NCBI GenBank assembly: GCA_951230915.1
Contig: OX579641.1
Location: 11,966,001-12,030,000 of the forward strand
Direction of reading: 5' to 3'
From: Antitrichia curtipendula
Lineage: Eukaryota > Streptophyta > Bryopsida > Hypnales > Leucodontaceae
Length of the DNA: 64,000 bases
Shown here: piece after piece, positions 47,158 through 57,257 of the stretch
Layout of the letters: every line of letters begins with the position of its first letter
Position numbering within the stretch: the stretch's first letter is position 1
Notes under the pieces: generated by a model
Database searches by the model: none
What the model was told of the DNA's origin: nothing
What the model saw: the letters and a program-made list of their open reading frames with translations, nothing else
Position numbers and translations under genes: made by a program

Positions 47158-47859
47158 ATTGCCTTATCTTACACTAAGGTACATGATAGAAATTTAAGAC
47201 TTAATATCTACCAGAGAGGTACATAACATGGACCCAAATTTTTTACATCCACCAATTCAGATAATTTTGGAAATTAGTGCCTCCTTTTCGGGTTCACTTT
47301 ACAATTAAATTTCTATATTCAGCACATACAACTACCAAGTAAATTTAAAAAAAAAAATTTGTGTATCTCCAAAATTGGTACATAAGAGAGATTCAATCTA
47401 TTCAATTTTATAAAATGTCAAAAGGTAGTTTTGGTGTTGGCCGTTTTGAATTCATTGCCTTATCTAACAGGAGTGTACATGACTAATTTAAAAAAAAAAA
47501 ATTTGTACATGATCTAAGACGGAGCGTACATTATAGAACTGAGAATAGCCTTATCTATGAATTGGATGGTTTGCGAATTTAGTGCTGGGAAAGCCAACGA
47601 CGGAGGCTCTTCCATCGTCTGACTCCGAAGCGGAAGACGCCGGAATGCGTGAGTGGTGATGAATGTCCGAGTGAATCTTATATCCACACATTATCTGCCG
47701 CACACTGCAATCTCTTGGGTAGGCCGTGGTCTGTCTCCTACTCCACAGATTGAAGGGTGCCGCTAGAATTTGAGTATCCTCCGTCTCTCCCCCCTTCCCT
47801 ACTCTCGTTTTGCGTTATCCTCTGTTTCTGAGAGCTTGTGGTTGGAATTCGCTGCTCCA
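47158..47859. promoter_or_regulatory. FNR upstream region and 5' leader
   Basis: AT-rich up to about 47560, then GC rises toward the gene. The pyrimidine-rich segment near 47780-47810 probably belongs to the leader. The reading frame stays open upstream to an ATG at 47770. Confidence 0.35.
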
Positions 47860-49368
47860 ATGGCGCACGCTGCGTGCTTGCAAGCTTCCGTCGCAGCTCA
47901 TGTGGGCGTGGCGCACGTCGGGATCTCGTCCACAACCACCTCCACGAGCGCCGACGCCTCGCTCTTCTTCACGGGACGCCGCTTGCCGGCTTTGCAATGC
48001 ACGGCCGTGTCCTCCCGCAATGGGGTGGCGCCCCGCCGTTTCGTTGCTCCCCTCGCGGCCCTAACGGAGCAGACCAGCAAGGTGGCGCTTACGGGCGACT
48101 TGGACTCCGCCCCTGACCCCCCGATGCACTTGTTCAAGAACAAGGAGCCGTTCATCGGGACGGTGAAGTCGGTGGAGCGTATCGTCGGGCCGAACGCCAC
48201 CGGTGAGACGTGCCATATCGTTATTGAGCATAACGGGGACATGCCGTACTGGGAGGGCCAGAGCTATGGCATCATCCCGCCTGGGGAGAATCCGAAGAAG
48301 CCAGGGCAGCCGAACACGGTGCGCCTATATTCCATTGCGTCTACCCGCTATGGAGACGAATTCGACGGCAAGACTGCGAGCCTCTGTGTTCGCCGGGCGG
48401 TGTTCTGGGACCCGGAGCTTAAGGCCGAGGATCCCGCCAAGAAAGGTATCTGCAGCAACTTCTTGTGCGATTCCAAACCGGGCGACAAGGTCCAGGTCAG
48501 TGGTGTTTTCTCAACTCCTTTTCTTGATACTCTGCTGAAATATTCTATGTCATGCGATGCATTTTCACAAAGATTATTGATGTTTGAGTATTACTCTCGA
48601 ACCACTTTAATTTCACCACTTTGGCTCCAACTTTTTCGCGATGCCATAGTTTGATTGTGTGACAACTGTGTCATAGTTTGAATTGTGAGAAGTCTACGAT
48701 AATGAATGATACGAAAACAAGTGTGCAGGATATTCCAGATCAGAGAACGGCATGTTAAAGAGATCTGGTTAAATTGCGATAGTCTCCGGTGTGTTGAAAC
48801 TTTGTTTTGCGTTTTTTGTGGGGGTTTGTTGATGCGAACACTTCGTGTGAAATCACTGCAGATCACAGGGCCATCCGGGAAGGTGATGCTTCTCCCTGAG
48901 GACGATCCGAACGCAGTCCACATCATGGTGGCCACGGGAACCGGCATTGCGCCGTACCGAGCCTACCTCCGACGCATGTTCATGGAGGATGTTGCCACCT
49001 ACAAATTCGGAGGCCTAGCGTGGCTCTTCCTGGGCGTGGCCAACTCGGACAGTCTCTTGTACGACGACGAATTCTCCAAGTTCAGGGAGCAGTACCCGGA
49101 CAACTTCCGGTACGACATTGCTCTCAGCCGTGAGCAGACGAACCAGCGGGGTGGGAAGATGTACGTGCAGGACAAGATCGAGGAGTACAGCGAGGAGGTC
49201 TTCGAGCTTTTGGACAAGGGCGCGCACATTTACTTCTGCGGTCTGCGGGGGATGATGCCCGGCATTCAGGACACGTTGAAGCGCGTGGCGGAATCGCGGG
49301 GGGAGGTCTGGGAGGACAAATTGGCTGCGTTGAAGAAGAAGAAGCAGTGGCATGTGGAGGTGTACTGA
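47860..49368 (+). CDS. Ferredoxin-NADP+ reductase, root (non-photosynthetic) type, plastid
   Basis: Two exons, 47860-48495 and 48862-49368, give 380 residues. The enzyme moves electrons between NADPH and ferredoxin using FAD; the root type runs toward reduced ferredoxin for nitrite and sulfite assimilation. Residues 1 to about 65 form a Ser/Ala/Thr-rich plastid transit peptide. The FAD site is RLYSIAST (155-162) and GICSNFLCD (196-204). The NADP site is [11 protein letters not shown] (235-245). The C-terminal aromatic Tyr380 (HVEVY) stacks on the flavin. Root-type marks include [18 protein letters not shown] and [10 protein letters not shown] in place of the leaf-type sequences. The ATG at 47860 was chosen because [10 protein letters not shown] starts a normal transit peptide; an in-frame ATG at 47770 is the alternative. 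The single intron is 366 bp. Confidence 0.94.
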
Positions 49369-51577: not shown

Positions 51578-51594
51578 AATAACCCGAGCGCAGC

Positions 51595-52503
51595 ATGTCG
51601 AAGCCCGTGGTGCTCATCACCGGCGGGACGAGCCGCACCGGCCGCGCCTTAGCCAAGCTCCTCTTACCCTCCAACAATTTCACCCTCCGCTTAGGCGCAC
51701 GCGACCCATCCAAGCTTGCCCCTCTCGTATCCCAGGGCGCCGAAGCTATCTTACTGAACTCCACATTAGATTCTATGCAATCCGCTCTCAAAGGCGTAAA
51801 CTCCGTTTTTTTCATCTACCCCGCTCTCACAGGTGGCCCCGGCGACACGCTCGTCGCAAACTTCTTCCTCGCATTGGCACAACCCCACACCATCACTCAC
51901 ATCGTCTACCTCTCCTCCATGCGCACCTCCCCCAACGACGCCCACTTCGAGCTCGCTTACAAGCACTGGCGCAACGAGCAACAGTTGCTCCAAACCCTAA
52001 TCCCTTACACCATCCTCCGCCCGACGTTCTTCCATGAGAATCTCGTCACGAACTTCGCGGAGGAGATTAAACGCAACGGAGAGTATCGCACAAGCGCGGG
52101 GGATGGCGTGTGGACGAGCGTGGCGGTGTGTGACGTAGCTGCAGTGGCGATGGCAGCGATTGCGAATCCTGATTTGCATACGAGCAAAACATATGAGTTG
52201 CGGGAGGAAGCGGTGACGCATGAGCAAGTCGCGGAGAAGATTAGTCGTGTGAGTGGGAAGAAGGTGAAGATGGTGAACTTGACGCCGGAAGAGCACTATG
52301 AGCTGGTGATGAAAGCTTGTGCTGGAGCTGGGATCGGGAATGCGACGGCGCTTGCGGATCAGGTGGTGCGCTCTGATAAGGAGAAGCGTGATGGGGTGTA
52401 TAGCGTTGTGACGCCCGACTTGGAGCTGGTGTTGGGGAGGAAAGGTGTGACCTTGGATGAGTTTCTGGAAGAGCATGCTGGGGATTTCAAGAGAGAGCAG
52501 TGA
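51595..52503 (+). CDS. NmrA-like NAD(P)-binding (atypical SDR) protein
   Basis: Intronless, 302 residues. The N-terminal nucleotide-binding motif is GGTSRTGRALA (residues 10-20) in a Rossmann fold (VLITGGTS). The middle has the SDR-a arrangement with LSSMRTS, KHWRNEQQLL and PYTILRPTFFHENL (about 103-145). The C-terminal part resembles the NmrA substrate or regulator domain. The family contains redox sensors and quinone or isoflavone-type reductases; no substrate can be given. The start at 51595 gives the normal length with no N-terminal extension. It lacks introns, unlike most genes here, and its codon third positions change from C-rich in the first half to G-rich in the second. Transfer from bacteria or fungi is possible but untested. 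Confidence 0.85.
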   Translation: MSKPVVLITGGTSRTGRALAKLLLPSNNFTLRLGARDPSKLAPLVSQGAEAILLNSTLDSMQSALKGVNSVFFIYPALTGGPGDTLVANFFLALAQPHTITHIVYLSSMRTSPNDAHFELAYKHWRNEQQLLQTLIPYTILRPTFFHENLVTNFAEEIKRNGEYRTSAGDGVWTSVAVCDVAAVAMAAIANPDLHTSKTYELREEAVTHEQVAEKISRVSGKKVKMVNLTPEEHYELVMKACAGAGIGNATALADQVVRSDKEKRDGVYSVVTPDLELVLGRKGVTLDEFLEEHAGDFKREQ

Positions 52504-53550: not shown

Positions 53551-56500
53551 CTATTGGAAGGCCTCAGTCTGGGTCTCTAAGTGCAACAAAACCTGCCTAA
53601 TAGCTGTCCGCATCGTTATGGCCGTAGAAGGCTCCCACCAGTCTGTGAGCTGTGGGCATCCATCGTTACATTAGCAGAGTAAACTATCGGCACTTCATGA
53701 GCAGTTCGTACAATTACGTAAATTACGCACATGACACATTAGAGAATGGAAATTGAAGAAAAGAAAATGGTGCACAAGAGAATGACTGGCACAAATATTT
53801 GTGAGCAAGAAGAAAACGAAACAAGCACTTACAAATGTAAAGCCTTGAGTTTGAGCCAAGCTGAAGGTTTCAGGTCCATTCTTCAAAAGAAGTTCCGCAT
53901 ATTGCAATATCAATAGACCAGTATCGTCGCAATCTTCCTGTTGTGGGACCTTCAAGTAGAAAAGAACAGGAAGAACGGTTATTCACTCTCAAACAAGTGC
54001 AAGACAGAGGACACCTCATCGGTTTCAAATACATGGAAAGAAAAGGAGATGTCCAGGTGAATCATCCACCAATCGCCAAAAAGGAGAAAAGCAAGGGTAC
54101 AGCTTAATCCTAATCAATTTAAATTTCCTAGACTCTGACGGACCATTCGTATGAAAACTAAAGAAAGCAAGGTATTGCTCACCGCGACTGGGTAGAATGG
54201 GATATCTGACACGTGTTGTGGAGCAACATGGCCACCGTGATGCCAAAGCCACTCATAATGCAGTATACTGCAAATCAACCAGGCACTTTCAGCAAACATG
54301 AATCATGTAGCTCACAGGAGAATCTAGTCACACGTAAGTAGGGAGTAAAGGACCTACTAATCCAAATCCTATTATCATGCCAAAACGATTTGCTCTAATG
54401 TCCGAACGTCAGATGAATCATGATCAGATCATTACAATCTCATATGTCTCTCCAAATCTTGATGAGCCTTTTGTCGTGATGGATTGAGATGCAAAATGCA
54501 AGGCGCTACTATACTCGATTCCATTCCTTCTGCACTCCACCCCAGTTGTCTTGTCATAATGTTAAGCTTGCAGTAGAAAAATCAAAAATTGGAATTATAG
54601 CGACAACTTCACCTAGACTTTTGAAAGAAGCAAGGCAGACTCTTTCCATGAGAAGTAATAACAGTTCAGAAAGTGCTCCTTGTACACCTGAATTTCGAAT
54701 TACCTGCAATAGGTCTTCCAGGGAAACACATGACAATTAGGCTCCACTGTTCCCTGTTTTCAGCACAACAAGGAAATGCAGGTGTGATCAGATGGCTCTT
54801 TTCGTAGGCTCCAAATTCAAAGACACGAAACGAATTGCAACTATCTATCTCTAGAACTTTGTAATGCAGAAATATGTGCAGAGACGTACTCCTTAAAAAC
54901 TGGGATTATAACATAGCTCTTGTCAAAAATACTTTTCATCCAATGTCGTACGCTTCCATATCTAACTACGTTTAGATTCGCCGACACATTCTTTGTGAAA
55001 GTTTTGAAGATTTGTACATCAGGAATTCGTGTATTACCACAGTGAAGATACCTGCAAGGGAAAACAATATCATCGCAAGATAGGTTAAAGATGACTGATC
55101 CATGCCTACCAAGTTTAACCCAACGTGGACAAGGACCATTTCGAACAGGCAAAGAGGGCAACAACAGCAACATCAACGTGCCAGTTCACTCTATCTGATG
55201 CTCAAATTTTTCCAAACCAAACATTTTCGGTTAGGCAATTCTCTAGGTCATCGAATGGAACTGAAAAACAACATCTAGACTCTAGATCTCTGCATGTGCT
55301 GAAACGAAGAACTCATTAGAAGACACTCAAAACAAGAGACAGGCACACCATCAGGTTTCAGATCAAATAATGCCACTTACTTCAAATAGAAATTTACAAT
55401 GCTGTCGGATAACTGTCCCCCTGGCTCAAGAGACTTTATGTCGTCATGTGTGATGGTTACAGGGTCTGCATCATCAGGGGGCCAGACAATATTGCTGAAG
55501 GTTTTTCCAACGCCGTTGATCCTATCAAGGGAACGAAATTGTCACTGCGAGTGAAAACAAAACATGATGATAAAACATACAAAAATCAACGTGTCACTCC
55601 AGATTCTCACTAAGCAGTTCTGTGATCCCAAGTGAAAACTGTATGGAAGTCCCCAACCTTAACCTCTACAGGACCAAGATGCACAGATTGAGCAGCAGGT
55701 CATACAGGGACTTTCTTTTATTCAAAATTTAACCAATAACTGCAATGTTCTTCAAAGACTCTGATGATACAAGATTTGGCCCCAACATCATCAAGCCATA
55801 ACTATGAGTCCTTGGTACTTGAGGGCTTAAAAATGAAGCAGCAACAGTCCAGATGCCCAAAGCAAAACAGAAATCAGCAGTTAGGACACTAATGTATTTG
55901 TAAAGGAGTTTTCAGAGTAAGAGTTGGAATCACATACCTAGGTTGCTCGATGTTTCTGTGCCTCTCCGAAAATGCACGCACATTATGCTCCACGAGATTC
56001 CATTCACGTTTGTCAATTTTAAGAAGATAAGACTCTGTGACGAGAAACAGATGGTTGTCAGATACTAGTTAATCCAAATATGTTTTGAAAATTGTTTTGA
56101 AAATTGCTATAAGTTACTAATAGCTTCCAAAGTGAACTTCCTATTCTAGCATGTGAACTTACGAGAAAAGGACTATAACAGAAAGTTGGAACAATGAATA
56201 CATGTAACAGCACAGCTTCCTCGAAATCTAGACGAACGAGTAGATAACACGAAGCACAGTCTATCAAATGCTATCAACGTAACGTACCAGAACTCGTAAA
56301 CTCCGACGCACTCTTCAATGCTGACAGCACAGATTGCAGAGACGCCACCACATTCATTTCCACAGCGTCACCATTGTCTTCCGAAAGCTCCACACTATTT
56401 GCTTCTACAGTTCCCCTTCTGGCATATTTCCTCCCACACGACTTATCCTGCTTCGTTTGGCAAGAAATGACGCGCTCAATATCTTTGATCAGAGTCCCAA

Positions 56501-57257
56501 AAGCAGAGGCAATCCCAGGTGACTGCGCCACAGAAGTTGGACTCGATTCATGTTGTACATATCCAGCGTCACCAGAAATCCCTCTCACATGATTTCCGTT
56601 CCCCTCAGAGCCCGCTTCAACAGGAGCTCTATACGAAGTCACAGAATAATCTTCAATGGTCGGTCCAGCCTTGGTTGAAGCTGGAGCCTCCACCAGCAAT
56701 GGCGACGTCGCAACTTTCTGCGAGCTTCCACTTTCAATGGGCTTCTTCCCCCTCCTCTTCCCAGGCTTGCAATCCGCTATCAACTCGTGCCACTTCTGCG
56801 TATACTCTGAAGGAATGAATTTCAAGAATTCCCTGTTGGAGTCCAGAATCTCGACATAGGTTTCGTTGGTCTTGGAAGAGCGCTCTTCAATGTCCATGTA
56901 AACTCGCCTGAGTGTGTCCCACCGTTCACCCACATGCTTCCCGGATCTCGGTGTGAAGTGCTCCTTGAGCTGGGACGCTATCTCGTCCCATGCACTGGAG
57001 CCTTTGGGGCAGACCTTGCGGTCGTCTTTGTTTAGAAGCTGTCCTTTTCTTAATATAAGGAGTTGCAGCGTTTCTGCTTCACTCCAGTTTGAAGACCTTT
57101 TCCGCTTCTTTCCAGATGATTCTTCCTGTGTAGCCGCTGTGGTTTTGTGTAATTGTATGGTGCTATCGTTCTCTGCTTCCTGGCATTTGCTGTACGCCAC
57201 CTCTAGGAGAGGGATCATCGACAGTGGCACGCCCCCCTCGGCCCCTCCAGGCTCCAT
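53551..57257 (-). CDS. Trihelix DNA-binding domain fused to a Ulp1-type protease fold with substituted catalytic residues
   Basis: Eight exons in phase give 578 residues: 56288-57257, 55938-56034, 55381-55521, 54890-55051, 54688-54753, 54183-54267, 53833-53949 and 53551-53649. Residues about 57-125 are a trihelix (Myb/SANT-like) domain with spaced tryptophans at the start of each helix (SNWSEAETLQLL, SAWDEIASQL, GERWDTLRRVY). It is flanked by basic stretches KKRKR and GKRRGKK that suggest nuclear import. From about residue 373 a Ulp1/SENP fold follows: VTITHDDIKSLEPGGQLSD, EEQWSLIVMCFPG, SILHYEW, VPQQEDCDDTGLLILQY, DWWEPSTA. Active Ulp1 enzymes have HW, a following Asp and DCG. Here these read QW (Gln459), Glu484 and DTG (Thr517), while the oxyanion Gln511 is kept. 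The protein is probably an inactive SUMO-protease-like regulator on DNA. Exons 5 and 6 depend on my choice of donor at 54688. Confidence 0.75.

Follow-up and report, generated by a model that had tools for sequence, protein, structure and literature searches.

Background

Plant ULP2-type proteins (SPF1 and SPF2 in Arabidopsis) and human SENP6 and SENP7 belong to one subfamily of the Ulp proteases, which act on the small ubiquitin-like modifier (SUMO). All Arabidopsis ULPs are described as having the catalytic residues His-Asp-Cys, and those of the ULP2 type as having a catalytic domain central in the protein (PubMed Central article PMC6117582, in the part that was available). A Plant Cell review (PMC11371177) recognizes among bryophytes, lycophytes, and ferns a ULP2 group that it names 'SPF-like'. 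In the available part of that source this group is a ULP2-like branch of non-seed plants, and it may include some of the moss genes considered here; the words 'trihelix', 'Myb', and 'inactive' are absent from the main text of the review. The gene described below lies in a stretch of 64,000 nucleotides from the moss Antitrichia curtipendula (contig OX579641.1, positions 11,966,001 to 12,030,000), called the window, and encodes a trihelix domain followed by an Ulp domain of the ULP2 type. We know of no trihelix domain in proteins of the SPF1/SPF2 or SENP6/SENP7 type.

Ulp domains also occur in transposons. The available part of PMC2836005 places Ulp1 in Mutator and Ginger1 elements and does not name pogo there; in Mutator-like and Ginger1 transposons (PMC2836005 and PMC6117577, as far as available) the Ulp is coded beside a DNA-handling protein, unlike the window protein, which has no transposase domain. 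Inactive proteases are known in other roles: pseudo-deubiquitinases act as scaffolds or activators (PMC10919355, available part), and a dead Ulp1 serves as a laboratory SUMO trap (PMC5774762, available part). No description of a trihelix-Ulp fusion was found in the open-licence PubMed Central literature, among the matches listed and judging by titles and the beginnings of abstracts.

Gene structure and domains

The gene lies on the minus strand at 57257-53551 (ATG at 57257, stop at 53551) and consists of nine GT-AG exons, with introns of 136-416 bases, that form a single frame of 604 amino acids. The exons are as follows:

Exon 1, 56288..57257, minus strand: N-terminus, trihelix (residues 56-132), basic stretches KKRKR and GKRRGKK, linker, and conserved helix NVVASLQSVLSALKSASEF
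Exon 2, 55938..56034, minus strand: conserved segment linking the linker to the Ulp domain, ESYLLKIDKREWNLVEHNVRAFSERH; joined directly to exon 1 in the prediction P0005
Exon 3, 55381..55521, minus strand: start of the Ulp domain, IVWPPDDADPVTITHDDIKSLEPGGQLSDSIVNFYLK; Gln392 is at the SUMO-tail aromatic position
Exon 4, 54890..55051, minus strand: Ulp domain, through YVIIPVFKE
Exon 5, 54704..54753, minus strand: EEQWSL; the catalytic His column is Gln459
Exon 6, 54436..54529, minus strand: EGMESSIVAPCILHLNPSRQKAHQDLERHMR, PCILHLN; the catalytic Asp column is Asn489; overlooked in an earlier note on this DNA
Exon 7, 54183..54267, minus strand: FILHYEW; not the catalytic Asp segment
Exon 8, 53833..53949, minus strand: VPQQEDCDDTG; the oxyanion Gln537 is retained and the catalytic Cys column is Thr543
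Exon 9, 53551..53649, minus strand: C-terminal end of the Ulp domain and stop

These nine exons were obtained in two ways, by hand and by spliced alignment of a protein from a second moss, Ceratodon purpureus (P0001, M758_10G052100), to the raw DNA of the window, and the same internal boundaries resulted. The spliced aligner was purpose-written for this analysis; the Ulp part of P0001 scored 1020 against the real sequence, while the best score from 20 shuffles in two-base blocks was 49. The earlier note had joined trihelix and Ulp in one phase-consistent gene at 53551-57257, which is borne out by the single minus-strand frame with both Pfam domains, but its eight-exon model lacked exon 6 (product APCILHLNPSRQKAH). 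That exon was recovered by the P0001 alignment without prior instruction, and masking it lowered the score to 862, a loss of 158. Joining exon 5 directly to exon 7 (GT donors in 54691-54720, AG acceptors in 54183-54420) gave two open joins, both without ILHYEW. The intron after exon 6 (phase 2, before FILHYEW) has the same position and phase in five of ten other Ulp loci in the genome (L029, L035, L037, L040, and L041). Two observations count against exon 6: this intron is absent or in a different phase in L030, L032, L033, L039, and L042, read with the same aligner, and SENP7 spliced onto the window used only fragments of the exon and left the HLN segment unaligned. The exon was accepted because of the P0001 alignment, the five loci sharing its intron, and the phmmer alignment.

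Profile searches for the two domains, proposed in the earlier note, placed both above their Pfam cut-offs in the one protein: PF13837 (Myb_DNA-bind_4; 41.7 bits against a cut-off of 27) covers residues 56-132, and PF02902 (Peptidase_C48; 33.0 bits against 20.7) covers residues 392-564. The trihelix (GT) family is marked by three core tryptophans, and W58, W90, and W113 were invariant across nine aligned sequences. The domain thus belongs to the GT family by both profile and core tryptophans, and is predicted to bind GT-element DNA. Among the 17 distinct solved-structure sequences matching the window protein at E ≤ 0.1, the top match was SENP7 (E 2.4e-16), followed by SENP2, SENP1, SENP5, Ulp1, SENP3, and Ulp2; SENP7 was also first for P0001. 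By these matches the C-terminal domain is a member of the ULP2/SENP6-7 branch. It forms the end of the protein, unlike the mid-protein catalytic domain of the Arabidopsis ULP2s (PMC6117582, available part).

The catalytic columns

The catalytic triad of the C48 peptidases is absent from the window domain, in which the His, Asp, and Cys columns read Gln459, Asn489, and Thr543. The changes of His to Gln459 in EEQWSL and of Cys to Thr in DDTG had been reported in the earlier note and stand, as does the retained oxyanion Gln; with exon 6 included, the last two are residues 543 and 537 rather than 517 and 511. The Asp column had been read as Glu484 in ILHYEW and must be moved. It is Asn489, on exon 6, because SENP7 aligns its PCILILD opposite APCILHLN of the window. 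ILHYEW is another segment, whose Glu (now Glu510) lies 21 residues beyond Asn489 at a place where relatives show YVLQAW, YLVEEW, or LLSSEW; as the Asp column it was ruled out by the SENP7 alignment, the P0001 spliced alignment, and the comparison of introns.

All three catalytic positions are thus changed as had been claimed, but a reading of the third as a further killing change is not supported. Asn stands in the Asp column alongside intact His and Cys in L040, L041, L042, and P0009, and Asn489 was therefore rejected as proof of inactivity. The evidence that the enzyme is dead therefore comes from the His and Cys columns. From their loss the window domain should no longer remove SUMO, as the earlier note had predicted. 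In the Ceratodon protein the three columns read Leu, Asn, and Ala, so that its domain should be dead too. SENP7 and L033, one of two ordinary ULP2-type genes in the Antitrichia genome (L033 and L034), differ from the window domain in having His-Asp-Cys. The fusion is best called a pseudo-protease joined to a DNA-binding domain.

Conservation in a second moss

The search of other bryophytes suggested in the earlier note yielded the same fusion in Ceratodon, again with His and Cys lost. P0001, an uncharacterised entry, is 69% identical to the window protein over 99% of the query, and resembles it in having the trihelix before the Ulp domain, the same nine exons on alignment, and Asn in the Asp column. 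Identity between the two mosses was 30/50 in the N-terminus (one indel), 67/77 in the trihelix, 33/40 in the helix region after it, 65/127 (51%) in the linker with five indels, 20/23 in the next helix, 35/42 in the exon 2-3 segment, and 170/231 (74%) in the Ulp part with zero indels. Within this indel-free part the His and Cys columns differ between the mosses (Q459L and T543A), and Cys540 is Ser in Ceratodon. Such variability is expected if the catalytic chemistry is no longer used. As far as regional protein identity can indicate, the pattern fits selection on the Ulp fold and not on catalysis.

In the 400 Mb (megabase) genome (303 contigs), close identity to P0001 was found at the window locus only, among the 54 genome matches listed, and the gene is apparently single-copy. 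The initial search for relatives scored the 7998 candidates sharing the most words. A search with the Ulp part of P0001 matched only P0001 itself and P0009. Profile scans of viral_contigs and genome_contigs with an alignment of the exon-1 peptide gave no relative. These searches neither show nor exclude the gene in Physcomitrium, Sphagnum, or Marchantia.

Drift of the Ulp domain and SUMO as a possible ligand

A dead Ulp domain might still hold SUMO, and the conserved columns of the family bear on this. Columns were called invariant when at least 85% of 13 relatives with intact His and Cys agreed. The window domain keeps 19 of 28 such columns (nine lost) and the Ceratodon domain 20 of 28, while each of the 13 relatives, compared with the other twelve, keeps from 25/30 (SENP7) to 29/29 (83-100%). 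The losses include His, Cys, and parts of the FFNSFF motif, in which one residue is deleted, HFFNSFFF having become IFKTF-TKN. Residue 392, whose position we take to be the aromatic contact to the SUMO tail, is Gln in both mosses, Phe or Trp in most relatives, and Cys in L040-L042. The lost columns together with Gln392 weaken the case for binding of SUMO in the usual groove. That SUMO is the ligand of the dead domain is, on these columns, a tentative proposal that we regard as somewhat doubtful.

A more specific version, raised in the earlier note, is that the domain holds SUMO on DNA-bound partners and guards them from active SUMO proteases. It is possible in outline, as a catalytically dead Cys-to-Ser Ulp1 fragment binds SUMO1 at nanomolar affinity and so traps it (PMC5774762, available part), and the nearest solved relative, SENP7, is a SUMO-chain protease (PMC10919355, available part). 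The window domain has also kept Trp460, Gln537, and Asp395, the Asp of the LND-like motif. The same domain has, however, drifted further from the invariant columns than any of the 13 relatives and has lost the Trp/Phe at the SUMO-tail position and parts of HFFNSFFF, so that a reader or shield of SUMO appears rather unlikely. In our preferred reading the fold serves as a docking part, whatever its partner.

Other Ulp loci and the origin of the fusion

Twenty other Ulp loci (L029-L048) were fetched from the genome. His and Cys were both intact in all 13 loci readable at both columns (L029, L030, L032-L037, and L039-L043); L031, L038, and L044-L048 gave no reliable read-through at both. Four loci have the two domain types in reverse order, Ulp then trihelix, on one strand: L029 (C1:40.95 Mb), L030, L031, and L032 (C6:11.11, 11.73, and 11.69 Mb). 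A single open frame of 301 amino acids in L030 contains both a trihelix domain and the last Ulp segment (YDCGLHILHYIE); within it the trihelix is above the Pfam cut-off and the Ulp remnant below it (17.6 vs 20.7), the Ulp domain of this locus resting on spliced alignment. The chosen stretches of L029 and L032 gave no Pfam family, and their trihelix domains rest on tblastn; the window's own trihelix had no tblastn match in L030, L031, or L032. With the pieced-together L030 protein as query nine relatives were found, four of them from Ceratodon and five of the nine with both Pfam domains. The reversed architecture is present in Ceratodon P0010, P0011, and P0017, while P0013 has PF02902 alone in the precomputed Pfam list. 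His and Cys are intact in five of the six Ulp-trihelix sequences read (L029, L030, L032, P0010, and P0013); P0010 has His-Asp-Cys, and P0011 has Ser in the Cys column. In this group (L029-L032, P0010, P0011, P0013, and P0017) the two domain types of the window protein are joined in a single chain, except that for L029, L031, and L032 they are known to lie on one strand. The group differs from the window protein in domain order, in its mostly intact His and Cys, and in the tree position of its trihelix, although a join of the trihelix domains is not rejected. The earlier note knew of no described plant family with its architecture; none turned up among the literature matches listed either, but the gene is less isolated than that implied, since mosses also carry the reversed fusion.

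Eleven of the 20 loci, L035-L045, have a match to the DDE_1 transposase on the strand of the Ulp domain and 5' of it; confirmation by Pfam is limited to L040. These matches are pogo/Tigger-like, and DDE_1 and Ulp may perhaps form one transposon protein; the Ulp domains of the 11 loci are of two subtypes, one having Asn and the other Asp in the Asp column. A genome search with PF13837 gave at least 150 scored trihelix-type matches, several of which are open frames that recur at a constant length (543, 310, 288, and 272 amino acids) and look like mobile elements.

In trees of Ulp domains, the window and Ceratodon domains joined L040/L041 (support 86/92 with 15 rows and 93/95 with 18 rows), and the six Ulp-trihelix rows formed their own group in the 18-row tree (100/99). 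That tree was built without L042 (dropped as a near neighbour of L041), L031, L034, L036, L038, and L043-L048. Forcing the window domain together with the Ulp-trihelix rows, or with L033 and P0018 of the SPF type, was disfavoured by the approximately unbiased test (p-AU 0.043 and 0.017). In the trihelix tree the window domain was separated from the C-terminal trihelix domains (support 89/93, flagged for long branches), and joining them was not rejected (p-AU 0.077). From these trees it is likely, although not proven, that the same two domain types were united on two separate occasions.

The tree position, with its two disfavoured alternatives, would also suit an Ulp part of transposon origin, like the DDE_1-adjacent Ulp domains of this genome, and the window domain has in common with L040/L041 both the Asn and a one-residue insert after it. 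The join is unsure, however, because both branches are long, and its support is not starred. Plain identity to the window Ulp does not set L040 (32%) above L033 and L030 (34% each), and the 604-amino-acid protein contains no transposase domain in Pfam, DDE_1 included. Of the window gene's five introns from FYLK to VPQQ, L029 shares all five in position and phase, L033 four, and L040 three; L040 lacks two that the window gene and L029 have in common, and L040-like copies are therefore not the donor unless introns were regained. A transposon source is on balance quite unlikely. Most likely, the Ulp part derives from a host ULP2-type gene, introns included, and catalysis was lost before the two moss lineages split.

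Integrity of the gene

Several points weigh against a functional fusion protein with a docking domain. No transcript across all nine exons has been seen, the fusion is known in two mosses only, and P0001 is itself a hypothetical protein. AlphaFold2 gave unusable models of the Ceratodon protein, with a mean predicted local distance difference test score (pLDDT) of 37.9 from one sequence and 36.3 from three, so that an intact Ulp fold is argued from sequence alone. Selection was judged from protein identity by region, and docking itself is a matter of inference. Finally, seven more predictions (P0002-P0008) cover exon 1 alone or exons 1-2 and do not reach the Ulp domain. In six of these a few to about 35 unrelated residues follow the 3' end of exon 1 before a stop; in P0005 (411 amino acids, from a contig of 1555 bases) exon 1 runs without an intron into exon 2 and a stop follows about 16 codons later, making it possibly an alternative transcript without the Ulp domain. 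The seven are uninformative either way on the Ulp part in their organisms.

The lack of a full-length transcript and the early stop in P0005 could also be taken to mean that two neighbouring genes lie here, that the gene model is wrong, or that the gene is a pseudogene in decay. Against this, the same architecture is annotated in Ceratodon, the nine exons are free of stops and the Ulp part is free of indels between the two mosses, and in P0005 itself the intron between exons 1 and 2 is missing, as it would be in a transcript; all three readings are very improbable. Residual catalysis with other residues, such as Thr543 in the Cys column or Cys540 three residues away as nucleophile, is barely credible and was rejected, as the corresponding Ceratodon residues are Ala and Ser, neither moss has the His beside Trp, and near the site there is no substitute common to both.

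Past the gene's 3' end there is, on the opposite strand, an intronless NmrA/NAD(P)H-binding frame (51583-52503, plus strand; PF13460 60.6 bits, PF05368 48.6 bits). Open frames at 47767-49368 (plus strand) resemble, by eye, what we take to be exons of a ferredoxin-NADP reductase.

Proposed role

The reading to which we lean, with a little more confidence than doubt, is that of a nuclear moss gene for a trihelix DNA-binding protein with a non-cutting ULP2/SENP6-7-type C-terminus as its docking part. Because a second moss has the same dead fusion, the gene is probably functional, with a former enzyme converted to binding. From what is known of the families, the trihelix domain would bring the protein to DNA, and the two basic stretches (KKRKR and GKRRGKK) would serve nuclear entry. 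The dead Ulp fold may be retained for another protein to dock on, which could be a SUMO-modified protein, another ubiquitin-like protein, or a partner unrelated to SUMO.

It is conceivable, if improbable, that two DNA-targeted SUMO modules work as a pair in mosses, with Ulp-trihelix as the active eraser and trihelix-Ulp as a dead reader or shield that would keep SUMO at chosen chromatin sites. With a natural, conserved, DNA-binding dead Ulp one could test directly whether a former eraser is used by plants to read SUMO on chromatin. The presence of both domain orders in mosses points to SUMO control guided by a trihelix domain as a possible theme of this lineage.

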